Below are positions 26,520 through 39,202 of a DNA stretch of 39,836 nt, in pieces. Both the position numbers and the translations under genes were made by a program. Position 1 is the stretch's first letter; every line of letters begins with the position of its first letter. The notes under the pieces were generated by a model. It had not been told where the DNA came from and made no database searches. It was given only the letters and a program-made list of their open reading frames with translations. Origin of the DNA: a virus; IMG/VR virus record IMGVR_UViG_3300045125_000173, positions 1 through 39,836 of that record; one strand, given 5' to 3'.

Positions 26520-26563
26520 CTGCCATTTTGACAGGTGCCGCGGCCCGGCTGCCATTTTGGCAG
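26520..26563. repeat. Phased double palindrome, copy 1
   Basis: Palindromes start at 26520 (one mismatch, TTTTGACAG) and 26549, 29 bp apart, around a GCCGCGGCCCGG spacer. Left-most copy of the set; a second long hairpin lies just upstream on the minus strand. Confidence 0.85.
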
Positions 26564-26576
26564 GGCGAGTTAGGGC

Positions 26577-26608
26577 CGCCGTAGGTTATTCCCTCGTTCC
26601 CTACGGCG
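26577..26608 (-). terminator. Long GC hairpin after HNH gene
   Basis: A perfect 9-bp stem (CGCCGTAGG/CCTACGGCG) with a 14-nt loop, between the stop of the HNH gene and palindrome copy 1. No U-run follows, so a terminator or an RNA-stabilising structure are both possible. Confidence 0.45.
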
Positions 26609-26639
26609 ACCCATCACCCACCACGCCACGAAAGGAAGA

Positions 26640-27155
26640 CTAGTTATTATTTGCGATACATTTACAATATTCAATAAATGTTTTTTGGTCTAATGCCATT
26701 TTCATTCTATTTATATCTTTATGAACAAACTGGAATATTATTTTTTGTATAGTTTCTATTAGAGTCTATTCTATCTACAGATGCTGTCCATTCTCTTTCT
26801 AGTAAAAACTCATCAGACGTTTTAGGTAAAGTAATAGGAAGTCCAGAAAGTTTACATTTAAAATCTTGTTTAACTAAAATATGATCTAAATCTTTTGGTT
26901 TAATATGAATAGCAAAACTTCTCGCTCTAGCATTTAGAACCATAGCCGTCCAATACATTCTCATAATATATTTGGACACAAACTCTGATTCTTTAGATAA
27001 ACAACCGCAGGACTTTTTCTACCACTATTAACTAATGTTTTTTTACAACGTATAATATTACCACAACTACATTGACATAATACTGCTATATATCTATCTA
27101 TTTTACCATCTTCTTTTATGATAGTTAAACACGAGTCTTTTTTGTAGCGTGGCAT
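26640..27155 (-). CDS. HNH homing endonuclease, frameshifted
   Basis: N-terminal region MPRYKKDSCLTIIKEDGKID with CQCSCGN...RKSCGCL (the C-x-CG ... SCGCL block that often precedes HNH domains), then FKCKLSGLPITLP, WTASVDRIDSNRNYTKNN and, after a second indel, QFVHKDINRMKMALDQ. Two extra C bases (near 27015 and 26731) break the frame. About 170 residues. Free-standing mobile endonuclease inserted downstream of the DUF932 gene. Confidence 0.72.
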
Positions 27156-27225
27156 ATATACTATAGTGATCTAGTTATTGTTGACCCATATAATATATAC
27201 ACCACACCACAAAAAATCTGCGTTT

Positions 27226-28170
27226 TTATACCGCACTCGCCATAGTCATAGCGGTCTCAAAAGCCTTATTATTTTCATTGGCATTTTGTCCGAACCACAA
27301 AGAATCAAGACGATTATCAGTAGTACGACCCTTAGCATAGTTAAGATACTCATTAAAACCCATATAAGCGGCCCAATATGTTCCACGAACATTAGCAGCA
27401 CTCTGCTTCGGGCCTTCGATACGGGCGAGAATATCGTCCATAATATTACGGGTACGAGTCTTGATATCCTCGTCCGCACCCTTAATATTCAGCACAACCT
27501 TCACATACTTCTCAATATCCTTCTGGCTGAAACTCTTGCTAGCAAGGAACCGATACTGTTCCGCAGTAGCCTCAAAACCAGCATTAATATTGTCCATAAT
27601 ATCACGAACTTGTTCCAGATTCTTCTGGCTGGAGCGAGTGTGACGAATACGAATCAACTTACTATCATTATGCTTGTGAGCATACGACAGCGTATTGACA
27701 CACACAACACGAATCGGCGTATAGCCAACGCGAATAGCGGTTGTGCCATCATGACTATTACTCAGCAGAATAAACTTCGACACTTCATCACCCGGAACAA
27801 TCTCGCTATTATCGCGGTTGAGTTGAGCCAGCACCCAAACCTTTTGGCCAAGATGGAGCGATCCGGCAGTATGGATCGAACACTCATTAGCGTCGAGGAA
27901 AGGCTGGAACCAATCAAACGCATCACGATTCTGGAGCGGCGTATAACGCGGCCCGACAACACCAAGGATGCTACCATCGCTCTTGCGATAGGTTGCACGA
28001 TGATTGACCGGAACGCCGTCAACGGTCTGCAAATCCTTCAGACCAACTTCCCAATCCAGACCAGCAGCGACGATAGCATCATTCACATTGATACCCTCGT
28101 CAACGCTATTGCCAAGGCCATGCCAAGGCGTCTCACCAACAAACATCATCTTTTCAACAGCAGCGGGCAT
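27226..28170 (-). CDS. DUF932 / phage-plasmid TIGR03299-like protein
   Basis: 314 residues starting MPAAVEKMMFVGETPWHGLG, the standard opening of this family (F-x-G-x-T-P-W-H-G-L-G). Continues SDGSILGVVGPRYTPLQNRD, VCVNTL and a helical C-terminus. The family is common on phages and plasmids, often near recombination and replication genes; its activity is unknown. Start chosen at 28170 with GGAGTTTGATT before it. Single-gene unit with its own promoter and higher GC than the left half. Confidence 0.85.
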   Translation of the reverse strand: MPAAVEKMMFVGETPWHGLGNSVDEGINVNDAIVAAGLDWEVGLKDLQTVDGVPVNHRATYRKSDGSILGVVGPRYTPLQNRDAFDWFQPFLDANECSIHTAGSLHLGQKVWVLAQLNRDNSEIVPGDEVSKFILLSNSHDGTTAIRVGYTPIRVVCVNTLSYAHKHNDSKLIRIRHTRSSQKNLEQVRDIMDNINAGFEATAEQYRFLASKSFSQKDIEKYVKVVLNIKGADEDIKTRTRNIMDDILARIEGPKQSAANVRGTYWAAYMGFNEYLNYAKGRTTDNRLDSLWFGQNANENNKAFETAMTMASAV

Positions 28171-28213
28171 AATCAAACTCCTTCGTGGTTAGGTTCTTCG
28201 TTCCGATACGCTG

Positions 28214-28241
28214 ATTCTACAATATGTATTCGGCTTGTCAA
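28214..28241 (-). promoter_or_regulatory. sigma70-like promoter, GCCGA class
   Basis: TTGACA (28236-28241), a 16-bp spacer with GCCGAATA, and TAGAAT (28214-28219). It starts 24 bp after palindrome copy 2 and drives DUF932. Confidence 0.8.
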
Positions 28242-28265
28242 GCGTAGGAAATGAGAAAATCTTTT

Positions 28266-28309
28266 CTGCCATTTTGGCAGGCGGGCCGCGGATGCTGCCG
28301 TTTTGGCAG
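28266..28309. repeat. Phased double palindrome, copy 2
   Basis: CTGCCATTTTGGCAG at 28266 and CTGCCGTTTTGGCAG at 28295 with GCGGGCCGCGG between. The phosphoribosyltransferase stop codon touches its edge; the DUF932 promoter begins 24 bp beyond. Confidence 0.92.
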
Positions 28310-28809
28310 TCATCCAATATTTAGTAGCGGAATCCCAAGATCACGCTTGCAGAGTTTACTGCCATCCTCATCGTTACGATAAGCACATTCGTTAGGCAGA
28401 TAGCAATACACGCCATTACAGTGAGAACGCGGATACTCATCCTTTAGTACCTTTTTAATATGTCTAACGGTCGAGCCAGAACAGATTAAATCGTCTAATA
28501 TAATATATCGAAAAGGGGCCACTCCTCGGTACGAAACTCTGAATAGCATCGTTCCCCCTTTCTTACCACAATAATATTCTTATTGAGTAACTCTGCGATT
28601 TGTGGAACCACCATTAATCCACTTACACCACAGCAGGCGATACTATCAAAACTATCAGAGATTTTTCTTAGATCACAAACAGCCTTTATAATAATCTTAT
28701 TACGAGTCTTATGATTCAAAACATGACAAGTGTGGCTAGCACCCTGAATATACTTTCCCTCAGATGTTTTACGAACATCCTCAATCGGCTGGTTTAGTAC
28801 ATTAGTCAT
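28310..28809 (-). CDS. Phosphoribosyltransferase-fold protein, frameshifted
   Basis: The first frame has FDSIACCGVSGLMVVPQIAE (hydrophobic strand and substrate loop) and NIIVVRKGERCYS. The second frame has FRYIILDDLICSGSTVRHIK, the 13-residue PRPP-binding motif (hydrophobics, DD, then GST). One indel near 28550 joins them to about 165 residues. Type I phosphoribosyltransferases use PRPP in nucleotide salvage or synthesis; which base it uses is not shown. Confidence 0.72.
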
Positions 28810-28813
28810 AAAA

Positions 28814-28902
28814 ATGGACGGAGTGATTCGAACACTCTAAGAAAGGATAGATAAGGCGTTATGCCTAGATATAGAATACTTGTCCCACCAAGTTGCATCC
28901 AT
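28814..28902 (-). tRNA. tRNA-like gene, irregular (type unassigned)
   Basis: A canonical T-arm (GAGTG-TTCGAAT-CACTC) and a 7-bp acceptor (ATGGATG/CGTCCAT) bracket 89 nt. The middle does not fold normally. ACTTG-GTGGGA-CAAGT looks like a Pro anticodon arm with a 6-nt loop but sits where the D-arm should be, and AGGC-ATAAC-GCCT resembles a long variable arm. It may be a decayed or mis-sequenced tRNA. Confidence 0.4.
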
Positions 28903-28915
28903 TAGACGAGAAAGA

Positions 28916-29083
28916 TCAGTCGTTATCTAGTTCATCCACTACATCATGATAGTAGTGTTCGTATTCTCTTTCATCCTCAAAATCATCATAATCTGGTTCG
29001 TCAGAATAGTCGGCATAATCATAGAGTTCTTCACTATCTTCCACAATACGATCATAGTCAAACTCATATTCATCATCGTACAT
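28916..29083 (-). CDS. Highly acidic protein, 55 aa
   Basis: MYDDEYEFDYDRIVEDSEEL and on; more than half Asp, Glu or Tyr. Such DNA-like acidic proteins in phages often mimic DNA to block nucleases or repressors (family knowledge); here that is only a possibility. A similar acidic product is at 37673. AAAAGGAGAAAACGG precedes the ATG. Confidence 0.6.
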   Translation of the reverse strand: MYDDEYEFDYDRIVEDSEELYDYADYSDEPDYDDFEDEREYEHYYHDVVDELDND

Positions 29084-29104
29084 AGCCGTTTTCTCCTTTT
29101 CTCT

Positions 29105-29132
29105 ATCTTACACCAAACCAACGAACTGTCAA
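29105..29132 (-). promoter_or_regulatory. sigma70-like promoter
   Basis: TTGACA (29127-29132), 16 bp, then TAAGAT (29105-29110). The -35 begins just one base beyond the 3' end of tRNA-Lys; drives the acidic protein. Confidence 0.7.
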
Positions 29133-29133
29133 G

Positions 29134-29206
29134 TGGACCCCCTGGGACTCGAACCCAGAACCTACGGCTTAAAAGGCCGCTACTCTACCGATTGAGTTAG
29201 AGATCC
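29134..29206 (-). tRNA. tRNA-Lys(TTT)
   Basis: 73 nt; acceptor GGATCTC/GGGGTCC with G-T pairs; anticodon loop CTTTTAA (TTT); T-arm CTGGG-TTCGAGT-CCCAG. No encoded CCA. Its own promoter is at 29215-29242. Confidence 0.92.
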
Positions 29207-29214
29207 ATATCAGC

Positions 29215-29242
29215 AGTATACAGTGTGTTATCGGTTTGTCAA
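29215..29242 (-). promoter_or_regulatory. sigma70-like promoter, CCGATA class
   Basis: TTGACA (29237-29242), 16 bp with CCGATAA, and TATACT (29215-29220), between tRNA-Tyr and tRNA-Lys. Confidence 0.78.
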
Positions 29243-29256
29243 CTCCAAAACTTTAG

Positions 29257-29336
29257 TGGTGGGTGAGGGACTCGAACCCCCGAAGTCGAAACACCTGATC
29301 TACAGTCAGGCCCAGTTGCCGCTTTGGTAACCCACC
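29257..29336 (-). tRNA. tRNA-Tyr(GTA)
   Basis: 80 nt with the longer variable arm of bacterial tRNA-Tyr; acceptor GGTGGGT/ACCCACC; anticodon loop CTGTAGA (GTA). Leader element e ends 1 bp before its 5' end. Confidence 0.92.
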
Positions 29337-29337
29337 A

Positions 29338-29386
29338 TTTTCGCTGACTACAACCACCCTAACCGAATCCGTAGGATTAGCTGAAA
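29338..29386 (-). promoter_or_regulatory. GGATT/TAGTCAGCG leader element, copy e
   Basis: AATCC-TAC-GGATT hairpin, 17 bp, then TAGTCAGCGAAAA, filling exactly the gap between the 3' end of tRNA-Ser and the 5' end of tRNA-Tyr. This copy precedes a tRNA and not an ORF, so the element is not coding. Confidence 0.65.
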
Positions 29387-29473
29387 CGGAATCTGAGGGA
29401 TTCGAACCCACGGAGGATTTTAACCCTCGGCGGTTTAGTAAACCGCTGCCTTAAACCGCTCGGCCAAGATTCC
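29387..29473 (-). tRNA. tRNA-Ser with anticodon ACT
   Basis: 87 nt; acceptor GGAATCT/AGATTCC; D-arm TGGCCGAGCGG; anticodon arm GCGGT-TTACTAA-ACCGC, which places ACT at positions 34-36; long variable arm. Structure is that of a bacterial serine tRNA, but A34 is unusual (GCT is normal). Confidence 0.88.
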
Positions 29474-29548
29474 TAAAGCATCATTTTTGTTTGACCAGAA
29501 CAATGCTAAACTGGTATTCGTAACTCAATCGTCAGCCTCCGTACTCTG

Positions 29549-29576
29549 ATTATACCCATCCTATCTGGTTTGTCAA
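29549..29576 (-). promoter_or_regulatory. sigma70 consensus promoter
   Basis: TTGACA (29571-29576), 16 bp with CCAGATA, and TATAAT (29549-29554). Drives tRNA-Ser and probably tRNA-Tyr. Confidence 0.8.
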
Positions 29577-29637
29577 TGGCTATATATTCTCGATTTATGG
29601 TTCGAATTTGGTGTATATTATTGTGGAGGTTCGAATT

Positions 29638-30210
29638 ATGAAAATAAAAGATCAAATTTTAGAACTCAGAGATTTAGGTTATTCTTATAGACAAATAGAA
29701 CAAAAATTAAATTGCTCTAAAGGTACAATATCTTATCATTGCGGCGATGGACAAAGAAATAAAACTGCAAATAGAAGAACTAAAAATAGATCACAACAGC
29801 ACCCACTTATTAGAAAAATAGAAAACTTTAACTTAAAACATCGTAAAATACAAATCAATTCTATTCAACAAAAAACTTTTAATAGAACTTTAAGATTAAA
29901 AATAGAAAAATTTTCTATGAATAAATCAGGAGTATATAATAATATGTCATTTACAATAGAAGAATTTTTAGAAAAAGTTGGAGATAAGCCAGTATGTGCT
30001 TTAACTGGCAAGTCTATAGATTTGATGAATTCTAGAAGCTATCATTTAGATCATATAGTTCCTAGATCTAAAGGAGGATCAAACAGTTTAGATAATTGTC
30101 AATTGCTTTGTAGAGAAGCCAATCAAGCTAAACACGACCTATCTTTGGATGAATTTATTCAATTATGTAGAGATGTAGTAGATTATATAGATAATAAAAA
30201 TAAGCTGTGA
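29638..30210 (+). CDS. HNH homing endonuclease
   Basis: 190 residues, intact, opposite strand to neighbours. N-terminus is a helix-turn-helix (ILELRDLGYSYRQIEQKLNC, SKGTISYHC). The C-terminus is a full HNH: VCALTGKSIDLMNSRSYHLD, HIVPRSKGGSNSLDN, CQLLCREANQAKHDLS. GGAGG stands before the ATG at 29638. It sits inside the tRNA cluster, and its last six bases overlap the 3' end of tRNA-Asn on the other strand. Free-standing mobile element. Confidence 0.85.
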   Translation: MKIKDQILELRDLGYSYRQIEQKLNCSKGTISYHCGDGQRNKTANRRTKNRSQQHPLIRKIENFNLKHRKIQINSIQQKTFNRTLRLKIEKFSMNKSGVYNNMSFTIEEFLEKVGDKPVCALTGKSIDLMNSRSYHLDHIVPRSKGGSNSLDNCQLLCREANQAKHDLSLDEFIQLCRDVVDYIDNKNKL

Positions 30211-30276
30211 GGGTCAGAGTCGAACTGACATCGGCAAAATTAACAGTTTTGAGCATTACCATTATGCTACCTCACA
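30205..30276 (-). tRNA. tRNA-Asn(GTT)
   Basis: 72 nt; acceptor TGTGAGG/CCTCACA; anticodon loop CTGTTAA (GTT); T-arm GTCAG-TTCGACT-CTGAC; discriminator G. Its 3' end overlaps the end of the plus-strand HNH gene. Confidence 0.92.
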
Positions 30277-30280
30277 ATAA

Positions 30281-30353
30281 ATGCCCAGGCAGGATTTAAA
30301 CCTGCAACCTAGGGAACCAAAATCCCTTGCTCTATCAGTTAAGCTACTGGGCA
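30281..30353 (-). tRNA. tRNA-Gln(TTG)
   Basis: 73 nt; acceptor TGCCCAG/CTGGGCA; anticodon loop TTTTGGT (TTG). Discriminator base T instead of the usual G for Gln, which is worth noting. Four bases separate it from tRNA-Asn. Confidence 0.9.
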
Positions 30354-30354
30354 G

Positions 30355-30427
30355 AGCCGGTAGTAGGAGTTGCACCCACGACATTCAAATTACAAATTTG
30401 ACACTCTGCTAACTGAGTTATACCGGC
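30355..30427 (-). tRNA. tRNA-Thr(TGT)
   Basis: 73 nt; acceptor GCCGGTA/TACCGGC; anticodon loop TTTGTAA (TGT). One base separates it from tRNA-Gln, so the three are processed from one transcript. Confidence 0.92.
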
Positions 30428-30532
30428 AAAGGGGATAGTTTTTATTTAACGATAGAATACCCCCATAAACTATCTACAAGGCTCGCTATTTCTAACGAAC
30501 CAAGATCGCCCTATCCACATGGGTAGACACGA
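30428..30532. other. Interval upstream of tRNA-Thr
   Basis: About 100 bp with a hairpin GATAGTTT...AAACTATC (8 bp, 25-nt loop). It may act as a terminator after the 69-aa gene. No gene seen. Confidence 0.35.
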
Positions 30533-30742
30533 CTATATATCATACTCGTTACGCCATTGGTTGTCAATAGCCTTACGAGTACGCTTACGCTTAGGTCTGT
30601 TATCCATAGTAGTATCACGATACTCTTTATGACCCGTAGATACTTCCCAAGGCTTTTTGACCTTGAGTTTAATAGCCTTGCCGTACTTGCGGCGTGGTCG
30701 CGTATCGTCGTTGTTGGGGAGCGTAATCATACCATTGTCCAT
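30533..30742 (-). CDS. Basic hypothetical protein, 69 aa
   Basis: MDNGMITLPNNDDTRPRRKY with KAIKLKVKKPWEVSTGHKEY and PKRKRTRKAIDNQWRNEYDI. Strongly basic, so probably nucleic-acid binding. It overlaps the upstream membrane-protein gene by 74 bp; a start at MITLP is possible. A promoter lies at 30797-30824. Confidence 0.6.
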   Translation of the reverse strand: MDNGMITLPNNDDTRPRRKYGKAIKLKVKKPWEVSTGHKEYRDTTMDNRPKRKRTRKAIDNQWRNEYDI

Positions 30743-30917
30743 TATCGTGTCGGTAAAAAACTTTATCTACATTAGGATCATAAGCCATTAAGCAGTATTG
30801 TATTGGATACACAGGTTTTGTCAACTGTGGGATTTTAATATCACCCTTTTGATAATCCTTAAAACCAGTATATGCCAAACCCAATACCGCTACTAGAACT
30901 CCTAGCCATTGTATCAT
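30669..30917 (-). CDS. Single-pass membrane protein, 82 aa
   Basis: MIQWLGVLVAVLGLAYTGFK: an N-terminal transmembrane helix, then a soluble domain DIKIPQLTKPVYPIQYCLMA with DKVFYRHDNGQWYDYAPQ. Start chosen at 30917 with AAGGAGTAGAGGC before it. Function unknown. Confidence 0.6.
   Translation of the reverse strand: MIQWLGVLVAVLGLAYTGFKDYQKGDIKIPQLTKPVYPIQYCLMAYDPNVDKVFYRHDNGQWYDYAPQQRRYATTPQVRQGY
30797..30824 (-). promoter_or_regulatory. sigma70-like promoter inside a gene
   Basis: TTGACA (30819-30824), 16 bp, and TACAAT (30797-30802), inside the 82-aa gene and about 55 bp before the basic protein. Confidence 0.6.
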
Positions 30918-30979
30918 GCCTCTACTCCTTGTCAACCCTCTCATAGACCATTTATCGACCAACCGCCACCAAAACTTTA

Positions 30980-31023
30980 ATGCCATTTTGGCAGTCGGGG
31001 CGGGCGGGCTGCCATTATGGCAT
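30980..31023. repeat. Phased double palindrome, copy 3
   Basis: Palindromes start at 30980 and 31009 (29 bp). Spacer TCGGGGCGGGCGGG is the most diverged of the set. The stop codon of the 78-aa gene lies inside the distal palindrome. Confidence 0.85.
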
Positions 31024-31251
31024 ACCCCTTTCCTGAGCCCTAATCATTACCTTTGGCGTTTTAATAACCTGAGTTAAACTATCAGCATTTTTATAGTCAC
31101 GAAATCCACGCTCATCAACATAGAAATACTCATCAAAAATATCAAACTCATTAGTATCATTGAATACGGCAACGGCCGCATCTATGGGACTACTCTCAGG
31201 AATACTAACAATCTTTTCAACCGTATTACTCTTTACATACCATTTACTCAT
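31015..31251 (-). CDS. Hypothetical protein, 78 aa
   Basis: MSKWYVKSNTVEKIVSIPES with PIDAAVAVFNDTNEFDIFDE and FYVDERGFRDYKNA, a pattern of small phage proteins where a strand is followed by a SPxxAA helix. Its TAA is within palindrome copy 3. Function unknown. Confidence 0.65.
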   Translation of the reverse strand: MSKWYVKSNTVEKIVSIPESSPIDAAVAVFNDTNEFDIFDEYFYVDERGFRDYKNADSLTQVIKTPKVMIRAQERGMP

Positions 31252-31418: not shown

Positions 31419-31426
31419 GATAACTC

Positions 31427-32131
31427 CTAGTGAGCAGGAAACAACACGTTAGCCAAACCGCGAACACACAAGTCGCATGATATACTATCTTTCGTGCCGG
31501 TGCAAGTGATTTCCGACCGACCACGACGGATTTCCGGACACGTTACAAACTTACTGCCGTTCAATACAACAAGTTTCGGCAGACTAGACCGCCAAGCATC
31601 AGCCTTTTTCTTGCTACGCGGACGCTTGGGAGCAATCTTCTCGTCGCTATCACACCATGCGAATAACTTGAAACCTTGTGCAAGAGCCTCTCCCATGTCG
31701 TTATCATCATGCACACTAGCATAGACGGCCATATACTTATCTAGACTAACAAGCCGACTATCATAGATATGAGTGTAAAACCACATATCGGGCAGACTAT
31801 CACCATCAGCAAGAATACTCTCACATGCCCACGTTACATTGGCGACATACTCTAGGTCAAGTTCACCGTTGAGAAACCAATCGCCACGCTCGTGCCAGCG
31901 AATAGACTTTTTACGACGCTTGGCATCCAGAATCATAGCACGAATCTTATTCTTCTCGGTCACAAGATTCTGCATACCAGCGGGGCGAACATTAGGATAA
32001 ATCTTTTCGGTTTCCTCAGCATAGCAGCCATTACCGAGATAATCGCAATCGGGCGGGCAAGTGTTTCCAACCGGACGCGAAACCACAATGCAACCCTTAC
32101 CCAACTTATCGTTACCATCTGCTGTTTTCAT
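31427..32131 (-). CDS. GP88-family phage protein
   Basis: 234 residues. Opening MKTADGNDKLGKGCIVVSRP, then GNTCPPDCDYLGNGCYAEET (Cys-rich block), and IRWHERGDWFLNGELDLEYV, match the 'gene product 88' family of phage proteins (C-x3-C...CYA, and R-x-H-x-x-G-D). A later CPEIRRGRSEITC and CDLCVRG hold more Cys, so a metal site is likely. Activity unknown. Drives from its own promoter at 32154. Confidence 0.75.
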   Translation of the reverse strand: MKTADGNDKLGKGCIVVSRPVGNTCPPDCDYLGNGCYAEETEKIYPNVRPAGMQNLVTEKNKIRAMILDAKRRKKSIRWHERGDWFLNGELDLEYVANVTWACESILADGDSLPDMWFYTHIYDSRLVSLDKYMAVYASVHDDNDMGEALAQGFKLFAWCDSDEKIAPKRPRSKKKADAWRSSLPKLVVLNGSKFVTCPEIRRGRSEITCTGTKDSISCDLCVRGLANVLFPAH

Positions 32132-32153: not shown

Positions 32154-32181
32154 ATTCTACAATCTAGAATCGGCTTGTCAA
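32154..32181 (-). promoter_or_regulatory. sigma70-like promoter, GCCGAT class
   Basis: TTGACA (32176-32181), 16 bp with GCCGATT, and TAGAAT (32154-32159), 25 bp after palindrome copy 4; drives GP88. Confidence 0.8.
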
Positions 32182-32206: not shown

Positions 32207-32250
32207 CTGCCATTTTGGCAGAGCGGCCGCGGAGCCTGCCGTTTTGGCAG
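32207..32250. repeat. Phased double palindrome, copy 4
   Basis: Palindromes at 32207 and 32236 with AGCGGCCGCGGAGC between. It lies 18 bp after the 3' end of tRNA-Arg, so in this unit it follows a tRNA and not an ORF. Confidence 0.92.
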
Positions 32251-32795: not shown

Positions 32796-32823
32796 ATTCT
32801 ACCATACAGTATCGGCAAGTCAA
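32796..32823 (-). promoter_or_regulatory. sigma70-like promoter, GCCGATA class
   Basis: TTGACT (32818-32823), 16 bp with GCCGATA, and TAGAAT (32796-32801), 25 bp after palindrome copy 5. It makes a tandem with the promoter at 32707. Confidence 0.72.
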
Positions 32824-32847: not shown

Positions 32848-32891
32848 ATGCCATTTTGGCAGGCGGGCCGCGGCATCTGCCACTTTGGCAG
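32848..32891. repeat. Phased double palindrome, copy 5
   Basis: Palindromes at 32848 and 32877 (CTGCCACTTTGGCAG) with GCGGGCCGCGGCAT between. It starts at the base after the stop codon of the L7/L12-like gene. Confidence 0.92.
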
Positions 32892-33266
32892 TCATGAGAG
32901 ATAACCCTCACAACCCAAAGAGGTCAGATCACGCAGCAGATTCTCAGCCGCTTCGGGAGTTTTAGCGGTCAGAGAAATGGTGTTTCCGCCACCACGCCAG
33001 AATCCGCTCTCGTCGTAGCGTCCCACCATACCATCCGTCCAATCCTTTGCTTCCTTCAATCCCCATCCGGTGTGCTGTCGAACAGCCTTGATGCAAGGGA
33101 TGCGATTGTCCAGATTCATGCCATTCGTGATGGTCACCATTCGACGCTGGTTCACGCCCAACGCCACCTCAAAAGCACTCACGATCTTATCGTGGATTGT
33201 ATCGTACGACTCCAACTTCGACATAATCCACATAGCCTCTCGAACCGTCAGTTCCAGATTGATCAT
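32892..33266 (-). CDS. L7/L12 C-domain-like protein
   Basis: 124 residues from the ATG at 33266 (AAGGATTTGAAA before it). Residues 58-80 (IPCIKAVRQHTGWGLKEAKD) match the ribosomal L7/L12 C-terminal domain core (K-I-x-V-I-K-x-V-R-x-x-T-G-L-G-L-K-E-A-K), and the end LLRDLTSLGCEGYLS matches its last helix and strand. The N-terminal half (LTVREAMWIMSKLESYDTIH) differs from L7/L12. It may bind translation factors or just reuse the fold. Confidence 0.72.
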   Translation of the reverse strand: MINLELTVREAMWIMSKLESYDTIHDKIVSAFEVALGVNQRRMVTITNGMNLDNRIPCIKAVRQHTGWGLKEAKDWTDGMVGRYDESGFWRGGGNTISLTAKTPEAAENLLRDLTSLGCEGYLS

Positions 33267-33268
33267 TT

Positions 33269-33688
33269 TCAAATCCTTTCTTCCAAAACGTAAACTTGTT
33301 TGCCGCCAGTAATCAGAGTAGCATACTCGCTACCGTCCCAAACGAACTCGTTGCTATCGCTTTCTCGTCGCCAATGTGGATCGCGTATTGGATTGTAATA
33401 CAACTTCTCAAGATTGTCAACAGGCAAAATCGGATGATATTCTTTTCGTAACATTACCTCTTCACATCTAATCCACCCGCTCACATCATGCACACCGGCT
33501 TCAAACACTTGCTTGGCCTTATTCGGCCGGTTCCACAGTTTACAACCCCGCATTTCCAACTGGTATTCGGCAGGATCATAATAGTAGACATCAACAGTCT
33601 TAGAACCCTGCTTCACTTTCACTTGCCAGTGCATATAATGCTCGCCACTGCTCAAATGAAATCGCACTTCGCCATGCAGTTTTTTCAT
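33269..33688 (-). CDS. Hypothetical protein, 139 aa
   Basis: MKKLHGEVRFHLSSGEHYMH with WQVKVKQGSKTVDVYYYDPA, RGCKLWNRPNKAKQVFEAGV and SGWIRCEEVML; beta-rich. Its stop is three bases before the next gene. Function unknown. Confidence 0.65.
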   Translation of the reverse strand: MKKLHGEVRFHLSSGEHYMHWQVKVKQGSKTVDVYYYDPAEYQLEMRGCKLWNRPNKAKQVFEAGVHDVSGWIRCEEVMLRKEYHPILPVDNLEKLYYNPIRDPHWRRESDSNEFVWDGSEYATLITGGKQVYVLEERI

Positions 33689-34138: not shown

Positions 34139-34166
34139 AGCATACCATTAGTATCGGCACTGTCAA
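34139..34166 (-). promoter_or_regulatory. sigma70-like promoter, GCCGATA class
   Basis: TTGACA (34161-34166), 16 bp with GCCGATA, and TATGCT (34139-34144), 24 bp after palindrome copy 6. Confidence 0.75.
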
Positions 34167-34190: not shown

Positions 34191-34234
34191 TTGCCATTTT
34201 GGCAGTTTGGCCGCGGCTCCTGCCGTTTTGGCAG
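34191..34234. repeat. Phased double palindrome, copy 6
   Basis: Palindromes at 34191 and 34220 with TTTGGCCGCGGCTC between; it touches the stop codon of the 55-aa gene. On the minus strand the hairpins are followed by AAAAATATTTTTC, the most terminator-like tail in the set. Confidence 0.92.
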
Positions 34235-34650: not shown

Positions 34651-34775
34651 TATTTCTTCTCCTTACATTCATTCTCTCTAACTCGATTATCACCAGAGTC
34701 AGATCGTGCAGGACACCGCCGATCATGAAAATCGTTCAACCATCGACCACATTTCTTGCACTTCATACTTTGCAT
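34650..34775 (-). CDS. Small zinc-finger protein, 41 aa, perhaps leaderless
   Basis: MQSMKCKKCGRWLNDFHDRR with CKKC and later Cys. The first ATG overlaps the -10 TATAAT of the only promoter, and the second ATG (34766) lies at about the expected transcription start. So translation must start leaderless at 34766 or from another promoter. Function unknown. Confidence 0.5.
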   Translation of the reverse strand: MQSMKCKKCGRWLNDFHDRRCPARSDSGDNRVRENECKEKK

Positions 34776-34801
34776 TATACCATTCTTTATCGGCAAGTCA
34801 A
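34774..34801 (-). promoter_or_regulatory. sigma70 promoter, GCCGATA class
   Basis: TTGACT (34796-34801), 16 bp with GCCGATAA, and TATAAT (34774-34779), directly overlapping the start of the zinc-finger gene. Confidence 0.75.
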
Positions 34802-35061
34802 TAAGAAAAATCCAGCGGAATCATTTTCGCCCCGATTCCTATAACCCATACGATTGCCCCTTGTCAGGATCGGATGGAAACCGTTCACGGAAACCTCCCT
34901 AGAATCGGCATTGCTAGCACATAGACTCGATTCATCTGGCTCTTGGAAGCGATTACTGGTTGTATTGGCGAGGGCCACAATAGGGCGGAACGTATTCACA
35001 TTCTTAAACAAACCCTATTCACATTTTTTCCGGCATGTACACCGATGGTCCTCGTATTGGA
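34802..35061. other. Unassigned interval downstream of the tRNA-like RNA
   Basis: About 260 bp of higher GC. The minus strand has an open frame from a TTG at 35011 (FRPIVALANTTSNRFQEPDE and on) without a ribosome site, and the plus strand has another from 34854. Both look chance-level. It could be part of a longer non-coding transcript started at 35219. Confidence 0.35.
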
Positions 35062-35194
35062 GCGTGGAGAGGGAATCGCACCCCCTTATATTGGTATACT
35101 ATCCTAACGTATAACCCCGTTAGGCAACCTCAAGGCGATTTCTTCCTAAAGGTTTATCGTACAGGTTATCCCAATCTAGTCGCTAGACCCACGC
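35062..35194 (-). ncRNA. tRNA-like RNA, 133 nt, irregular
   Basis: The 3' part has a good T-arm (GGGGG-TGCGATT-CCCTC) followed by TCCACGC, which pairs with GCGTGGG at 35188-35194 over 7 bp. The 5' end lies about 25 bp after a strong promoter -10. Between them are CCTAACG...CGTTAGG (7 bp) and TCTAG-CGA-CTAGA hairpins in place of normal D and anticodon arms. Too long for a tRNA, and no tmRNA signature is seen. Confidence 0.4.
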
Positions 35195-35218
35195 AAGTTT
35201 GTTTTGTCTTACTCAATC

Positions 35219-35246
35219 ATTCTACAATGTAGTATCGGCTTGTCAA
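35219..35246 (-). promoter_or_regulatory. sigma70-like promoter, GCCGATA class
   Basis: TTGACA (35241-35246), 16 bp with GCCGATA, and TAGAAT (35219-35224), 24 bp after palindrome copy 7. The next thing downstream is the tRNA-like RNA, not an ORF. Confidence 0.8.
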
Positions 35247-35270
35247 TAGGCTTTCTTGAAAAAATATTGT

Positions 35271-35314
35271 GTGCCATTTTGGCAGATTTCGCGGCCCCGC
35301 TGCCACTTTGGCAG
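35271..35314. repeat. Phased double palindrome, copy 7
   Basis: Palindromes at 35271 and 35300 (CTGCCACTTTGGCAG) with ATTTCGCGGCCCCG between, the inverted spacer form. 14 bp after the Api92 stop. The minus strand continues ACAATATTTTTTC. Confidence 0.92.
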
Positions 35315-35328
35315 ATTCGGGGTTTGTT

Positions 35329-35813
35329 TTATGCTTCTACTTCCTCATCCTCAGCAAAAAAGTCACTCAAACCAAAATCATTCCAAATAGCAACTGGAAT
35401 CATATCCTTACTTTTATATTCAATATAGTTATCAGCACCATTATCATAAATACCACAAAAGCACATACCCGGCTCAAAATAGGACGCTTTCACATTGTAT
35501 CCCAAGTCTACCAGTTCGTTATACAAACCCACCGGAGGAGCCCAAGCACTATCAAACGTAGCACTAATCTGATTACCAACTCGCGTGGCCTTCAGCCCAT
35601 ATCGTTCCTCATTATCAGTACCAATATCGGCCCCAATATCCCACTTTGTTCCCCAGTTATTCACACAAAATCCCACCATCCATCACCAATATCTTCCGGC
35701 ACTGGAATAAACTCACTACAAGTTTTACCAGCATTATAAGCCTTCTCAAAACGATCCACCATAGCGGGGTCAGAATGTTCAACGGTCAGATTGTTCAAGC
35801 ACCAGTTAGGCAT
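35329..35813 (-). CDS. Api92/DUF1281 ferredoxin-like-fold phage protein, frameshifted
   Basis: The N-terminal frame MPNWCLNNLTVEHSDPAMVD with CSEFIPVPEDIGDG breaks at a four-T run near 35660. The second frame continues NNWGTKWDIGADIGTDNEER, ATFDSAWAPPVGLYNELVDL and SYFEPGMCFCGIY. MPNWC-x-N, NNWGTKWD, F-x-T/S-A-W-x-P-P and Y-x-E-P-G are the family hallmarks. About 160 residues, normal when repaired. Common in phages and mobile elements; role unknown. Confidence 0.78.
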
Positions 35814-35832
35814 TGTGTTCTCCTTTGTGTCG

Positions 35833-35860
35833 ATTCTATACTATTCTTATCGGTTGTCAA
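35833..35860 (-). promoter_or_regulatory. sigma70-like promoter, CCGATA class
   Basis: TTGACA (35855-35860), 16 bp with CCGATAA, and TAGAAT (35833-35838), 20 bp before the Api92 start. The upstream gene's TGA is in the -35. Confidence 0.78.
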
Positions 35861-36321
35861 GCGGCCAAAGCCTTACCAAAAATCTTTTTATTCACATACA
35901 AACCCTTATGAGTATACTTAGAACCAGTGTATTTGGCAACAGTACGACTATCCATGATCCTACTAGTCACACCCTCCGGAGAAATAAAGACTAATACCAG
36001 TTTGTGGAAGTTGGCGGGGCAAACATGGTGGAAATGGTAAGAATATCCATTAGCAGACTTTCGAGCCAGAGCAGACTTGACCTCAATCTTTTTACCATTC
36101 ACAATCATATCAAAACTAACACTACCACCAAAATATGCAACCTTTTTACCATTCTTACGATAATAGTCCCTAACCATTCGCTCGACTACTCCACCACGAT
36201 AGTTCCTACTCATCTTGCTAAGACGATAGGCAATCAGGCTCTTTTTGGCAGAAAATAGGCTCTTGTTGTGAAAGCCACGAACCTCATTGAGAGCCTTATC
36301 TAAACTTTGTGTGGTGAACAT
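35857..36321 (-). CDS. PD-(D/E)XK-like nuclease
   Basis: 154 residues. Core GKKVAYFGGSVSFDMIVNGK then KIEVKSALARK: an Asp in SFD and E-V-K three strands later give the D...(E)xK signature of the restriction-nuclease fold, as in Holliday-junction resolvases and phage endonucleases. N-terminal NYRGGVVERMVRDYYRKNGK is the usual lead helix with Glu. The gene could cut host or branched DNA; the exact role is open. Promoter at 36328 overlaps the downstream side of tRNA-Glu. Confidence 0.68.
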   Translation of the reverse strand: MFTTQSLDKALNEVRGFHNKSLFSAKKSLIAYRLSKMSRNYRGGVVERMVRDYYRKNGKKVAYFGGSVSFDMIVNGKKIEVKSALARKSANGYSYHFHHVCPANFHKLVLVFISPEGVTSRIMDSRTVAKYTGSKYTHKGLYVNKKIFGKALAA

Positions 36322-36327
36322 AACCCT

Positions 36328-36355
36328 ATCCTACTGCTCCAAAAATAGTTGTCAA
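36328..36355 (-). promoter_or_regulatory. sigma70-like promoter
   Basis: TTGACA (36350-36355), 16 bp, and TAGGAT (36328-36333), 13 bp after the 3' end of tRNA-Glu. No GCCGATA box. Drives the nuclease gene. Confidence 0.6.
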
Positions 36356-36367
36356 TACCAAAAACAG

Positions 36368-36439
36368 TAGCCCCGTGGAGAATCGAACTCCAGTCTCTAG
36401 GATGAAAGCCTAGTATACTAACCACTATACGACGGGGCC
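36368..36439 (-). tRNA. tRNA-Glu(TTC)
   Basis: 72 nt; acceptor GGCCCCG/CGGGGCT; D-arm TCGTATAGTGG; anticodon stem CTAGG/CCTAG around CTTTCAT (TTC). Transcribed after the 51-aa gene. Confidence 0.92.
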
Positions 36440-36441
36440 GA

Positions 36442-36597
36442 CTAACCTACCATTCTCTCGATCCAAATATAACTACCATACTTTTCCTGAGCACGACGCA
36501 TAGCATCTGTTGCACTCAGAGCAACAATATAACCAACAAAACGATTATTCTGAAAAACTCTCCAAGAATAACCAGCGTAGCAGTTTGTAGTAATCAT
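36442..36597 (-). CDS. Hypothetical protein (NRFVGYIVALS family), 51 aa
   Basis: MITTNCYAGYSWRVFQNNRF with GYIVALSATDAMRRAQEKYG and SYIWIERM. Strand, turn, then an A-rich helix followed by a strand, a small phage family known to me by V-x-A-L-S-x-x-x-A-M-x-x-A. tRNA-Glu follows 3 bp after the stop. Confidence 0.68.
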   Translation of the reverse strand: MITTNCYAGYSWRVFQNNRFVGYIVALSATDAMRRAQEKYGSYIWIERMVG

Positions 36598-36603
36598 ACG
36601 CTT

Positions 36604-36631
36604 ATTGTATCGGCATTGAACGGCTTGTCAA
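36604..36631 (-). promoter_or_regulatory. sigma70-like promoter, GCCGATA class
   Basis: TTGACA (36626-36631), 16 bp, and TACAAT (36604-36609). The GCCGATA box lies next to the -10 here and not by the -35. It starts 23 bp after palindrome copy 8. Confidence 0.72.
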
Positions 36632-36654
36632 GTGAAAAAATCCACAAAAAATAA

Positions 36655-36698
36655 CTGCCATATTGGCAGAAATCGCGGCCGGCCTGCCATTTTGGCAG
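36655..36698. repeat. Phased double palindrome, copy 8
   Basis: Palindromes at 36655 (CTGCCATATTGGCAG) and 36684 with AAATCGCGGCCGGC between. 17 bp after the stop of the membrane protein gene; the minus strand continues TTATTTTTTGTGG. Confidence 0.92.
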
Positions 36699-36715
36699 AG
36701 CCTTAGCACAACCCC

Positions 36716-37120
36716 TCAAAAGAGGAGGCTGGCCAAGCCGGTCTTGAATGCAACCCCACCCAAGAGGGGACGTCGCACGTTGCGAGTCCGTTCCGCATAG
36801 AAGTTGCGAATCTTACCATCGGGAGTCTGAGCGGTCACAAGGTGACGGCTACGCTGAAAGTCAGGATCGTTCCGACGATAACGGCTAGAACTATTCAGTC
36901 GAGCAATGTAATCGTCAGAAAAACGATGAACTTCCAAAACCTTAGCCATGAATCGCTCAGGCATTCCCGTAACGGGCTGAACGTACTCAAAGTTATAAAC
37001 TCCACCAATCCTAGCATTCGTCAGACTATCACGAAGCCCACGATACAGATGGAAGACACAAAGAGCAATCATACCAGCAGCAACACCACAACCAATCGCA
37101 ATCATCGTCATATCGTTCAT
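36716..37120 (-). CDS. Conserved phage membrane protein, 134 aa
   Basis: MNDMTMIAIGCGVAAGMIAL (one transmembrane helix, residues 5-25), then RIGGVYNFEYVQPVTGMPER, FMAKVLEV, IARLNSSSRYRRNDPDFQRS and NFYAERTRNVRRPLLGGVAF. The second part matches a conserved phage family (Y-N-F-E-Y-x-Q-P ... S-R-Y-R ... N-F-Y-A-E-R). Start at 37120 follows AAAGGGTTCTT. Function unknown. Confidence 0.68.
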   Translation of the reverse strand: MNDMTMIAIGCGVAAGMIALCVFHLYRGLRDSLTNARIGGVYNFEYVQPVTGMPERFMAKVLEVHRFSDDYIARLNSSSRYRRNDPDFQRSRHLVTAQTPDGKIRNFYAERTRNVRRPLLGGVAFKTGLASLLF

Positions 37121-37160
37121 AAGAACCCTTTCGTTTAGAAATCCTTCACTCAATAAAACT

Positions 37161-37188
37161 AGCATACCACAAGAAAAAACTTTGTCAA
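37161..37188 (-). promoter_or_regulatory. sigma70-like promoter
   Basis: TTGACA (37183-37188), 16-bp AT-rich spacer, and TATGCT (37161-37166), before the 134-aa gene. The DUF7249 stop is in the -35. Confidence 0.65.
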
Positions 37189-37544
37189 GTCTCAACAGTA
37201 GATGGAATCACACTCTCCATGAGATTCTTAGCAATCTCTCCAAAGTTGACAGCACAAACACTAGCGTTCAGCAGATCGGCCCAAACCGTGCCATTCGCGT
37301 TAGCGTCACTCAGAATCCGTTCCATTCCAGCGTTGTAACTGTCGCGGAGTTTATCTGTCAAGAGATAAATAGCATCATCGGCCTTGGTCATGCCTAACCC
37401 GCCGAGAGCAGGCTCTTCGGCTTGATGATTATAAATCTCTTCTGCAAGTTTACGCCAGTAAGATGCGGACGATTCATTGTTGTCGATCCACAACTGAACA
37501 GCCCACGTTTCGTAGTTAGAGTAACCGTTGTAACTCATCGTCAT
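37185..37544 (-). CDS. DUF7249-like phage protein, 119 aa
   Basis: MTMSYNGYSNYETWAVQLWI with DNNESSASYWRKLAEEI and a middle helix. NGYSNYETW-x-V-x-L-W-I-D-N is the family hallmark, widespread in phages and their hosts' prophages, function unknown. Starts with an AGAGGAAA site. Its stop codon lies in the TTGACA of the next promoter. Confidence 0.75.
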   Translation of the reverse strand: MTMSYNGYSNYETWAVQLWIDNNESSASYWRKLAEEIYNHQAEEPALGGLGMTKADDAIYLLTDKLRDSYNAGMERILSDANANGTVWADLLNASVCAVNFGEIAKNLMESVIPSTVET

Positions 37545-37566
37545 TTTCCTCTGGGGTGATGCTTCA

Positions 37567-37594
37567 AGGATACCATAAGTATCGGCACTGTCAA
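37567..37594 (-). promoter_or_regulatory. sigma70-like promoter, GCCGATA class
   Basis: TTGACA (37589-37594), 16 bp with GCCGATA, and TATCCT (37567-37572), 21 bp after palindrome copy 9. Drives DUF7249. Confidence 0.75.
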
Positions 37595-37615
37595 GAAAAA
37601 GTTAAAAAATATTTC

Positions 37616-37659
37616 CTGCCATTTTGGCAGAAATCGCGGCCCCGCTGCCATTTTGGCAG
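37616..37659. repeat. Phased double palindrome, copy 9
   Basis: Two perfect CTGCCATTTTGGCAG copies at 37616 and 37645 with AAATCGCGGCCCCG between. 13 bp after the acidic gene's stop; the minus strand continues GGAAATATTTTTTAAC. Confidence 0.93.
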
Positions 37660-37672
37660 ATCGGGGTTCTTT

Positions 37673-37939
37673 TCAGTAGTCCTCGTTGTAGTCTCCGTAG
37701 TATCCGTAATCCTCGTCGGTTCCCCAACCCGCAGAGGCTAGGCCGCTCTCATGATCCCCATCCATACTATCATCATAATCTTCCCCATCGTGAAAATCGT
37801 CGAAGTCATCATAGTTGACATCATCAACTTCATGCGACTCATCATCAACCCACGGCCAAATGCTACGTTCTGCCGCATCATCAAAAGAATCGTAACTCAT
37901 CGTGTTCTCCTCATCGTAAAGGGGATTGGGGTGACTCAT
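37673..37939 (-). CDS. Highly acidic protein, 88 aa
   Basis: MSHPNPLYDEENTMSYDSFD and on, dominated by Asp, Glu, Tyr and Gly (DDVNYDDFDDFHDGEDYDDS). Two possible starts, each with its own GGAG-like site (37939 and 37900). Like the 55-aa protein at 28916 it could be a DNA mimic (inference). Function unknown. Confidence 0.62.
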   Translation of the reverse strand: MSHPNPLYDEENTMSYDSFDDAAERSIWPWVDDESHEVDDVNYDDFDDFHDGEDYDDSMDGDHESGLASAGWGTDEDYGYYGDYNEDY

Positions 37940-37960
37940 GACTTGTCCTTTCTACACTAA

Positions 37961-38125
37961 TCAAAACACTTCGTCAAGGGGAGCAAACTCATCAACAATG
38001 CCGACCACATCGGCCCAGTCCCAAAAATCGGTCAGGTTTTGAGGGTCGTCAATCGGCTCGACCATACGCTCGTCAACAAGTTGATTCAGAATCGCGTTGA
38101 TCGTATCCGTATCTTCGAGAATCAT
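37961..38125 (-). CDS. Hypothetical acidic protein, 54 aa
   Basis: MILEDTDTINAILNQLVDER with PIDDPQNLTDFWDWADVVGI. Start at 38125 with CGGAGATTGAAA. A longer open frame to 38311 would run through palindrome copy 10 and the promoter and is rejected. Function unknown. Confidence 0.62.
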   Translation of the reverse strand: MILEDTDTINAILNQLVDERMVEPIDDPQNLTDFWDWADVVGIVDEFAPLDEVF

Positions 38126-38153
38126 TTTCAATCTCCGTTGGGGTGATACGCTG

Positions 38154-38181
38154 ATTCTACAGTAAGATATCGGCTTGTCAA
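38154..38181 (-). promoter_or_regulatory. sigma70-like promoter, GCCGATA class
   Basis: TTGACA (38176-38181), 16 bp with GCCGATA, and TAGAAT (38154-38159). It begins 50 bp after palindrome copy 10, about twice the usual gap. Confidence 0.78.
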
Positions 38182-38231
38182 GAATAAAAATATAGTCAAA
38201 AAAAAGATTTTGTGGCACGCCGTTTGCTAAT

Positions 38232-38274
38232 CTGCCATTTTGGCAGGCGGCCCGCGAAACTGCCATTTTGGCAG
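38232..38274. repeat. Phased double palindrome, copy 10
   Basis: Two perfect copies at 38232 and 38260, the only pair 28 bp apart, with GCGGCCCGCGAAA between. 9 bp after the stop of the 24-aa membrane protein. Confidence 0.92.
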
Positions 38275-38283
38275 CCCCTTCTT

Positions 38284-38358
38284 TCAGGCGATAAGATAGG
38301 TAATATAACAACCAAGAATAAAAGAAAAAGTCAGTAGAATATAATCGGCTTTATTCAT
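38284..38358 (-). CDS. Membrane microprotein, 24 aa
   Basis: MNKADYILLTFSFILGCYIT and on, a single hydrophobic helix. Its ATG overlaps the stop of the 36-aa membrane protein. Function unknown. Confidence 0.5.
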   Translation of the reverse strand: MNKADYILLTFSFILGCYITYLIA

Positions 38359-38461
38359 CACGCTTCCTTATTGGAAAAAGTATTTCGCAAACACTATAAG
38401 AGCAAACACTACCAACAATAATACCCGCAAAGAATAATCCCCAGTTGATATATTCGGCCAT
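38351..38461 (-). CDS. Small membrane protein, 36 aa
   Basis: MAEYINWGLFFAGIIVGSVC and on: one transmembrane helix and a charged end (FPIRKRDE). AAGGGGCTAGGG precedes the ATG. Function unknown. Confidence 0.55.
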   Translation of the reverse strand: MAEYINWGLFFAGIIVGSVCSYSVCEILFPIRKRDE

Positions 38462-38476
38462 CCCTAGCCCCTTCCT

Positions 38477-38563
38477 TTATTCTAAAGACAACAACCACGC
38501 CACACTCAAAATCATACCACCAGCAATCCACACTGTCAAGACCAATCCAACTAACATTTCCAT
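38477..38563 (-). CDS. Membrane microprotein, 28 aa
   Basis: MEMLVGLVLTVWIAGGMILS and on, one transmembrane helix. GAGGCAGA precedes the ATG, which is 11 bp after leader element g. Function unknown. Confidence 0.5.
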   Translation of the reverse strand: MEMLVGLVLTVWIAGGMILSVAWLLSLE

Positions 38564-38574
38564 TCTGCCTCACT

Positions 38575-38623
38575 TTTCGCTGACTATAGCCCACCTTGCC
38601 AATCCGATAGGATCGGATAAGAC
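38575..38623 (-). promoter_or_regulatory. GGATT/TAGTCAGCG leader element, copy g
   Basis: GATCC-TATC-GGATT hairpin, 16 bp, then TAGTCAGCGAAAA. It starts 2 bp after the upstream stop codon and ends 11 bp before the 28-aa gene. Confidence 0.65.
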
Positions 38624-38625
38624 AA

Positions 38626-38814
38626 TCACTTGGCGTGAATGAAAACATTTTTACTAGCGGTCTGATTTGTAACAGTTACAATCCAGTTTTTCCCGCTACC
38701 ATCCTCACGAAGAATACCATTTATAATACCAACGTGAACATTACCCTTCGGATCCACAACCGTACCATACTTACCAGACCGCATAGCGGCCATAATCTTA
38801 TCTAGACTATTCAT
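38626..38814 (-). CDS. Hypothetical protein, 62 aa
   Basis: MNSLDKIMAAMRSGKYGTVV with DPKGNVHVGIINGILREDGS and NWIVTVTNQ; a small beta-barrel-like pattern. Start at 38814 with a GGGGG site, overlapping the upstream stop region. Function unknown. Confidence 0.62.
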   Translation of the reverse strand: MNSLDKIMAAMRSGKYGTVVDPKGNVHVGIINGILREDGSGKNWIVTVTNQTASKNVFIHAK

Positions 38815-39028
38815 CACGACACCCCCATCCAAGCGGCCTTTTCCAACAATAATCATAGAACATATCGTTCAGCACGTTACGATAGTTGAGATCGGTCAAT
38901 CTCTTACACTGTAAGATTTCGCCACACTCGGCGTATACCTTACCATCGGCAAGTTGAATCAGCCTAACATTGTGGCTTTCGCTTCCCCAAATCTGAACCA
39001 ACTCATTTTTGATCTTCTGGTCAATCAT
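38807..39028 (-). CDS. Hypothetical protein, 73 aa
   Basis: MIDQKIKNELVQIWGSESHN with VRLIQLADGKVYAECGEILQ and FYDYCWKRPLGWGC. Beta hairpin, then a Cys/Trp-rich end. The ATG follows GAGGAGAAAGAG. Function unknown. Confidence 0.65.
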   Translation of the reverse strand: MIDQKIKNELVQIWGSESHNVRLIQLADGKVYAECGEILQCKRLTDLNYRNVLNDMFYDYCWKRPLGWGCRDE

Positions 39029-39058
39029 TCTCTTTCTCCTCTTACTAGGTATATCGGT

Positions 39059-39086
39059 ATTCTACAGGCCGAACCTTGAATGTCAA
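39059..39086 (-). promoter_or_regulatory. sigma70-like promoter
   Basis: TTGACA (39081-39086), 16 bp without the usual GCCGATA (TTCGGCC instead), and TAGAAT (39059-39064). 52 bp after palindrome copy 11. Confidence 0.7.
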
Positions 39087-39138
39087 CATAAAAAAATCAG
39101 TCGAAAAAAATATTTTGTTTGGTACAAGATTTGCTGAT

Positions 39139-39202
39139 CTGCCATTTTGGCAGGCCGCGCGCGATTTCTGCCATTTTGGCAGTCGAGCTGCCAACTTGAC
39201 AG
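39139..39202. repeat. Phased palindromes, copy 11 (triple)
   Basis: Perfect palindromes at 39139 and 39168 (29 bp) plus a third, weaker one at 39188 (CTGCCAACTTGACAG), 20 bp further on. Spacer GCCGCGCGCGATTT. 19 bp after the stop of the 106-aa gene. Confidence 0.9.

Follow-up and report, generated by a model that had tools for sequence, protein, structure and literature searches.

Double palindromes before phage promoters: a probable operator set of two mutually exclusive types

Introduction

Do the regularly built palindromes that recur between the genes of some phages end the transcript behind them, or govern the promoter ahead? The question is raised by the right third of IMG/VR virus record IMGVR_UViG_3300045125_000173, whose 39,836 bases, analysed as a whole, are here called the window. 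Eleven double palindromes are found there on the minus strand. A first-pass annotation of the window had offered two readings, intrinsic terminators or operators for a dimeric protein, and had remarked that a combined stop-and-restart module would be new. We find that these elements have a constant anatomy, stand at a fixed spacing before promoters, occupy the same orthologous junctions in related phages, and come in two types that exclude each other within a phage. Judged by this comparative sequence evidence, the double palindrome is probably a DNA operator linked to the promoter that follows it.

Anatomy of the element in the window

Motif counts were compared with dinucleotide shuffles. 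With up to three mismatches allowed, CTGCCATTTTGGCAG has 38 matches in the window (both strands counted) against 0.78 expected (shuffle maximum 4), and all of them lie at 26520 or to the right of it, in agreement with the earlier statement that no copy occurs left of 26.5 kb. The 22 palindromes pair into 11 elements between 26520 and 39182, with a pitch of 29 bp in ten and 28 bp in one (that at 38232), so that every copy first described was recovered; ten of the 22 are exact 15-mers and the other 12 are off by one or two bases. The end coordinate first given, 39202, includes a degenerate third palindrome (39188-39202).

Each element reads CTGCCANNNTGGCAG, a 14-nt spacer with a GC-only middle, and CTGCCANNNTGGCAG again; P1 is the promoter-distal and P2 the promoter-proximal palindrome. 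The GC spacer had been given as one sequence or its inverse, and of this the GC-rich middle stands; the single fixed sequence does not, since the spacer varies among 172 distinct copies, in which core columns 19-26 are nearly all G/C, with C/G at the exact dyad. GC content is about 30-37% in the left two thirds of the window and 41-46% in the right third, and promoters whose -35 and -10 enclose a GCCGAT box are spread over the whole window, with or without a double palindrome. The elements and their promoters are as follows, the distance being that from P2 to the -35 hexamer.

26520-26563, minus: double palindrome, P1 26549-26563, P2 26520-26534, pitch 29; followed by no visible consensus -35
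Ahead of 26520-26563, minus: separate inverted repeat CCGCCGTAGG..CCTACGGCGG
28266-28309, minus: double palindrome, pitch 29; TTGACA 24 nt on
28214-28241, minus: promoter TTGACA-N16-TAGAAT of a DUF932 gene
30980-31023, minus: double palindrome, pitch 29; P1 contains the upstream gene's stop codon; downstream promoter degenerate
32207-32250, minus: double palindrome, pitch 29, directly 3' of a tRNA-Arg gene; TTGACA 25 nt on
32154-32181, minus: promoter TTGACA-N16-TAGAAT, GCCGAT box
32848-32891, minus: double palindrome, pitch 29; TTGACT 24 nt on
32796-32823, minus: promoter TTGACT-N16-TAGAAT, GCCGAT box
34191-34234, minus: double palindrome, pitch 29; TTGACA 24 nt on
34139-34166, minus: promoter TTGACA-N16-TATGCT, GCCGAT box
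35271-35314, minus: double palindrome, pitch 29; TTGACA 24 nt on
35219-35246, minus: promoter TTGACA-N16-TAGAAT, GCCGAT box
36655-36698, minus: double palindrome, pitch 29; TTGACA 23 nt on
36604-36631, minus: promoter TTGACA-N16-TACAAT
37616-37659, minus: double palindrome, pitch 29; TTGACA 21 nt on
37567-37594, minus: promoter TTGACA-N16-TATCCT, GCCGAT box
38232-38274, minus: double palindrome, pitch 28; TTGACA 50 nt on
38213-38228, no strand assigned: S motif, TGGCACGCCGTTTGCT as plus-strand reading, between palindrome and promoter
38154-38181, minus: promoter TTGACA-N16-TAGAAT, GCCGAT box
39139-39182, minus: double palindrome, pitch 29; TTGACA 52 nt on
39118-39135, no strand assigned: S motif, TTTGGTACAAGATTTGCT as plus-strand reading
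39059-39086, minus: promoter TTGACA-N16-TAGAAT

Occurrence in other phages

When IMG/VR was scanned for TGCCANNNTGGCA pairs whose gap was 15-17, 96 stretches came up, with 181 distinct copies, of which 174 are at the 29-bp pitch, and the spacing in relatives, the point on which the first-pass annotation had hung its elements, is not random; with variants allowed, these elements, hereafter type A, number 197 in IMG/VR, 189 of them at 29 bp. The same pair pattern has three matches in 85,000 bacterial and archaeal genomes (257 Gb), and neither a megablast of the window region nor a blastn of one 44-bp element found a match among 50,697 phage records. Long contigs (122-224 kb) hold 7 to 12 type A copies each, the listed positions falling in one cluster; copies are restricted to a single cluster of 10-20 kb, in which they are spaced at about one per kb, and the off-cluster pieces of two long contigs contain no element, not even a single palindrome. 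Within the cluster gene order is largely syntenic (about 35 contigs), and the same orthologous junctions carry elements in many phages. The carriers are large, uncultured and apparently lytic phages, and they are without close cultured relatives, the best cultured-phage relatives of the terminase open reading frame of one carrier being weak (24-27% identity). Three loci, L004 (3300035670_000546), L023 (3300036770_006768) and L040 (3300034073_003542), show a variant of type A whose core is not purely G/C but includes T/A steps (e.g., CCTACCGG, GGTAGCG).

Linkage to the downstream promoter

Type A copies were oriented by their A-rich loop, and promoter distances were taken over GCCGAT-box promoters (n = 86). 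A TTGAC follows within 110 nt downstream in 144 of 197 copies, against 28 of 197 at the mirror position, and in 60 of the 86 promoters it begins 22-25 nt from the element. The distance is quantised: beside the 22-25 nt class there are classes at about 53 nt and near 80 nt, both with the motif AGCAAATNNTGTGCCA, whose TGCC lies at +28 to +30 from the TGCC of P2, and which therefore occupies the place that P2 holds in the 24-nt class. Single palindromes that seemed to lie 22 nt before TTGAC proved to be an artefact, in which TTGAC falls within a mutated P2. For the window, the first-pass annotation had put the next -35 usually 20-25 bp and twice about 50 bp on, which is right where a TTGAC can be measured on the minus strand (seven copies have 21-25 nt, and the other two 50 and 52 nt) and too general for copy 30980, whose promoter is degenerate, and copy 26520, which has none that is recognisable.

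On the other side of the element no such regularity is found. A position 0-20 bp after a stop codon or tRNA 3' end had been claimed, and it often applies to P1 (several window P1 palindromes abut a stop codon, and at 30980 a TAA lies inside P1); over the relatives it is no fixed rule, the distance from the end of the previous gene ranging broadly from inside the gene to 369 nt. Separate CCCCC..GGGGG hairpins stand ahead of many elements, and at L094 an element 23 nt before TTGAC has an upstream gene that is apparently divergent. Because the distance to the -35 is fixed, the upstream distance is broad, and the gene upstream at L094 apparently points the other way, the element belongs to the promoter that follows it. 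The stretch between element and -35 has a mean AT content of 0.72 and, to judge by such examples as ACAAAGATTTTCTT, resembles an RNA-polymerase UP element. TAGAAT, a weaker -10 than TATAAT, is commoner in promoters linked to an element (59/86 against 21/65, p = 1.5e-5).

The same boundary positions suit a protein roadblock or insulator, in which bound dimers would halt polymerase that reads on out of the preceding gene and leave each gene to its own promoter alone. The elements do lie at gene boundaries, often right after a stop codon or tRNA 3' end and about one per kb, and elongation-blocking operators with a genome-specific consensus are known as stoperators in Cluster A mycobacteriophages (PMC6550527). 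A roadblock, however, does not require a quantised distance to the -35, many elements already stand behind a separate hairpin, and the L094 element apparently follows no gene 3' end. We consider a roadblock as the main function unlikely, though worth keeping in view, as is a combined role in stopping and restarting transcription.

Between operator and promoter, many loci (e.g., L022, L011, L294, L201) and the window at 38213-38228 and 39118-39135 carry a sequence, TTTGGCACNNNATTTGC / GCAAATNNTGTGCCAAA, named the S motif. It is a very close match to the sigma-54 -24/-12 consensus. An antisense sigma-54 promoter was nevertheless disfavoured, because both orientations of the motif turn up at the same place and both operator types have it; for the same reasons a protein site is the likelier reading.

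A second type at the same junctions

Orthologues of two genes that lie downstream of elements were fetched without requiring an element to be present, which gave 160 loci. Many of these have no CTGCCA palindromes and carry another element, here type B, at the same junction (two junctions were read directly). It runs from palindrome 1 across a GC-only core of about 15 bp to palindrome 2, after which come the A/T tract and TTGAC; its palindromes are longer than those of type A, and their TAAGNNCTT-type half-sites flank a GC core of the same kind. The consensus of 78 promoter-linked copies is yTAAAtCCTTgcc.c.aAAGgACTTAGGGCAA-ggcCGGCcGGCCggG-cTcG.CGTAAGTcCTTATctc.CAACgACTTACGaCAA. In 48 of the 78, arm 2 lies 51-52 nt from TTGAC, which puts the end of palindrome 2 some 25 nt ahead of the -35, where it also falls in type A. 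Whole genomes have about 10 to 28 type B copies in a cluster, at intervals of roughly 1 kb.

The two types do not mix. Of the 259 loci that carry at least two elements, 99 are purely type A and 160 purely type B, without a single mixed locus; the loci overlap and some contigs are near-identical, so these counts are not independent, which leaves the zero mixing unaffected. Likewise, type A copies number 8-17 in each of the four type A genomes examined, where type B is absent, and the three type B genomes, with 10-16 type B copies apiece, are free of type A. A DNA tree of gene 9 (window 31427-32131) nonetheless requires at least eight changes between A and B and has two sister pairs of opposite type with support of 99; since the types interleave on this tree, genes pass between type A and type B phages. 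A type-specific recogniser acting in trans would explain how each phage keeps a uniform operator set despite such exchange. In one lineage there are rare hybrid elements, made of a type A palindrome, GC core and type B dyad (L117 at 9431 and 11603, L118 at 9716), which are possible intermediates of a type switch. A pooled test of the two types at the same orthologue (p ~1e-15) is not relied on, the pairs being dependent and the region of one genome, with elements at both contig ends, too wide.

One type per genome could also arise if selfish palindromic repeats, similar to REPINs (repetitive extragenic palindrome doublets) or miniature inverted-repeat transposable elements, spread within each genome. 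Inverted pairs, many copies and a genome-specific sequence are what such repeats would give. Their confinement to one cluster of 10-20 kb and to the same orthologous junctions across many phages is not, nor is the common endpoint of the two types about 25 nt ahead of the -35; a RAYT/Y1 transposase (PF01797) was found in none of 13 records by a search that detected its positive control. This origin has very little probability in our estimate.

Gene exchange brings in another alternative. Promoter early stem-loops (PeSLs) of T4-like phages are said to have been described by Arbiol in 2010 and by Comeau in 2014, and the double palindromes might be cassettes of this sort whose main role is to provide homology for gene shuffling between phages. 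A unit of promoter and palindrome between small early genes would fit, as would the interleaving of A and B on the gene tree. Yet gene order is largely syntenic, and the type of the element does not move with the gene; shuffling as the main role is thus quite improbable.

RNA hairpin or duplex DNA site

Each type A palindrome is able to form a 6-bp hairpin, and type A elements fold well as RNA (mean minimum free energy z of about -2.9, on both strands), so folding by itself does not decide the matter. Together with the placement 3' of genes, this is the case for intrinsic, possibly bidirectional, terminators built of tandem short hairpins. A T-rich tail (at least five T in the 8 nt after P2), however, is present in just 14 of 65 copies, many elements have a separate hairpin ahead of them, and the fixed distance is to the promoter, not to the gene end. 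The stem sequence, moreover, is nearly invariant. Palindrome pairs of other sequence at 29 bp number 34 against a background of about 34, set beside 219 pairs of the TGCC type; because other sequences show no excess at this pitch, the element is one with sequence-specific recurring arms and not a generic hairpin.

Covariation in type B points the same way. At the two most variable positions of dyad 2, the halves pair at 0.22 against 0.37, and at 0.19 against 0.27, in shuffled columns, in a test that took in some copies not oriented by a promoter; because variable positions pair below the shuffle, half-sites in duplex DNA are favoured and an RNA or cruciform stem is disfavoured. This test replaces an argument that type B half-sites cannot fold, which was dropped because the full dyads can form hairpins. 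Intrinsic termination as the general function, one of the two readings first offered, is accordingly held to be improbable. Its competitor, a protein-bound operator, gained from the fixed pitch, the fixed -35 spacing, the second type at the same positions, the single type per phage and the lack of covariation.

Proposed mechanism and the search for a recogniser

In the mechanism that we propose, each double palindrome would be the operator of the promoter downstream. Two protein dimers, one per palindrome, would flank the GC-rich core, and the bound site would extend from about -60 to -103 relative to the transcription start. The operator would thus sit directly 5' of the UP-like A/T stretch, followed by TTGACA-N16-TAGAAT with its GCCGAT box, and the whole set would be read by a type-specific DNA-binding regulator. 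We infer that this recogniser is a protein acting in trans, which either the phage itself encodes or a particular host determines. Control of the downstream promoter from upstream, by activation or by insulation against read-through, is most likely, rather than classical repression, since no element overlaps the -35 or -10; that the effect is specifically activation we regard as possible but doubtful.

Several observations weigh against an operator. To the folding of type A elements as RNA must be added that the commonest variation in P1 (A:T to A:C, 22 cases) preserves a G-U pair on the other strand, that some copies, including window copy 26520, have no recognisable promoter, and that P1 so often has the terminator-like placement 0-20 nt 3' of a stop codon or tRNA. 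No type-specific DNA-binding protein emerged from reciprocal-best-hit and family screens that compared four type A with three type B genomes, not all of which are complete. A helix-turn-helix (HTH) protein of about 62-77 aa with an AT-hook-like tail adjoins the operator cluster in 18 of 22 genomes of both types; as the two types share it, with a conserved recognition helix, it probably does not determine the type.

The gene for this HTH protein is the first beside the cluster in most genomes (L112-L129, genomes G001-G007 and G027-G040). Alignment A1 shows the conserved recognition helix; the protein is predicted to be a three-helix HTH, and its predicted fold gave no significant fold match. 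As a candidate regulator of early promoters, it may act on the parts that both types have in common, i.e., the box and the A/T tract. It is also possible that the recogniser is a host protein. Directly 3' of the HTH gene (L115, L125, L128, L294), both types share a conserved block between genes, AAACTGGCCAATT...GGTGG...TTTTGGACCACC, which includes a GC stretch.

Put more broadly, and tentatively, large lytic phages may equip some 10-20 early promoters with one of at least two interchangeable operator codes, built on a conserved GC core with its anchor at -60, which would be switched as a whole set while genes recombine freely, and be read by a type-specific regulator, phage-encoded or host-specific. 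If true, this would amount to a system of regulatory incompatibility distinct from lysogenic immunity: operator sets that switch specificity are known from the immunity of temperate phages, and here they would be found in big, apparently lytic, uncultured phages. It would provide a direct handle on regulatory coherence in phages that exchange genes, and the element would serve as a sequence bait for the regulator.

Comparison with known systems

The elements work most like the operator sets of Cluster A mycobacteriophages, although they are not a member of that class. The stoperators of phages such as L5 and Bxb1 are asymmetric 13-bp sites, mostly away from promoters, to which the known immunity repressor of these temperate phages binds (PMC6550527). 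Like them, the present elements are many short sites with one genome-specific consensus that differs in related phages, and are linked to early transcription. Unlike them, they are symmetric double palindromes around a GC core, most of them tied to promoters at a fixed upstream spacing; and whereas the matching recogniser of stoperators is known (PMC6550527), no repressor gene was found in the present phages, some of whose genomes are incomplete.

For the unit of palindrome and promoter, the nearest precedent is the PeSL. By the titles cited in PMC4503421, PeSLs of T4-like phages are composite promoter-terminator motifs; they place a palindrome with an early promoter repeatedly among small early genes. 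To that extent a combined stop-and-restart module is not new. The present elements differ in having no general U-tail, a syntenic and not shuffled gene order, and two alternative types of one architecture. A search for T4 gp23 in the element-bearing phages gave no match, and control genomes were likewise without one. In the papers searched in full text, no earlier description of the element was found.

Bacterial REPINs and bacterial interspersed mosaic elements similarly consist of palindrome pairs in many intergenic copies of a genome-specific type, but without the fixed promoter distance and the single cluster seen here. Finally, the position at about -60 to -103, with an A/T tract between site and -35, recalls the upstream activator sites of sigma-70 promoters and their UP elements, although two palindromes with a GC core and a switch of type between related phages do not belong to what is described for these.

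Neighbouring genes

Two genes of the window's cluster deserve a comment. The phosphoribosyltransferase-like gene at 28310-28809 (minus) is in two frames in the window and in one open frame in relatives (e.g., L090), a split that may be either a real break or a sequencing error. At 32892-33272 (minus) lies a small protein that is conserved in the operator cluster and whose relatives are weakly similar to the C-terminal domain of ribosomal protein L7/L12.

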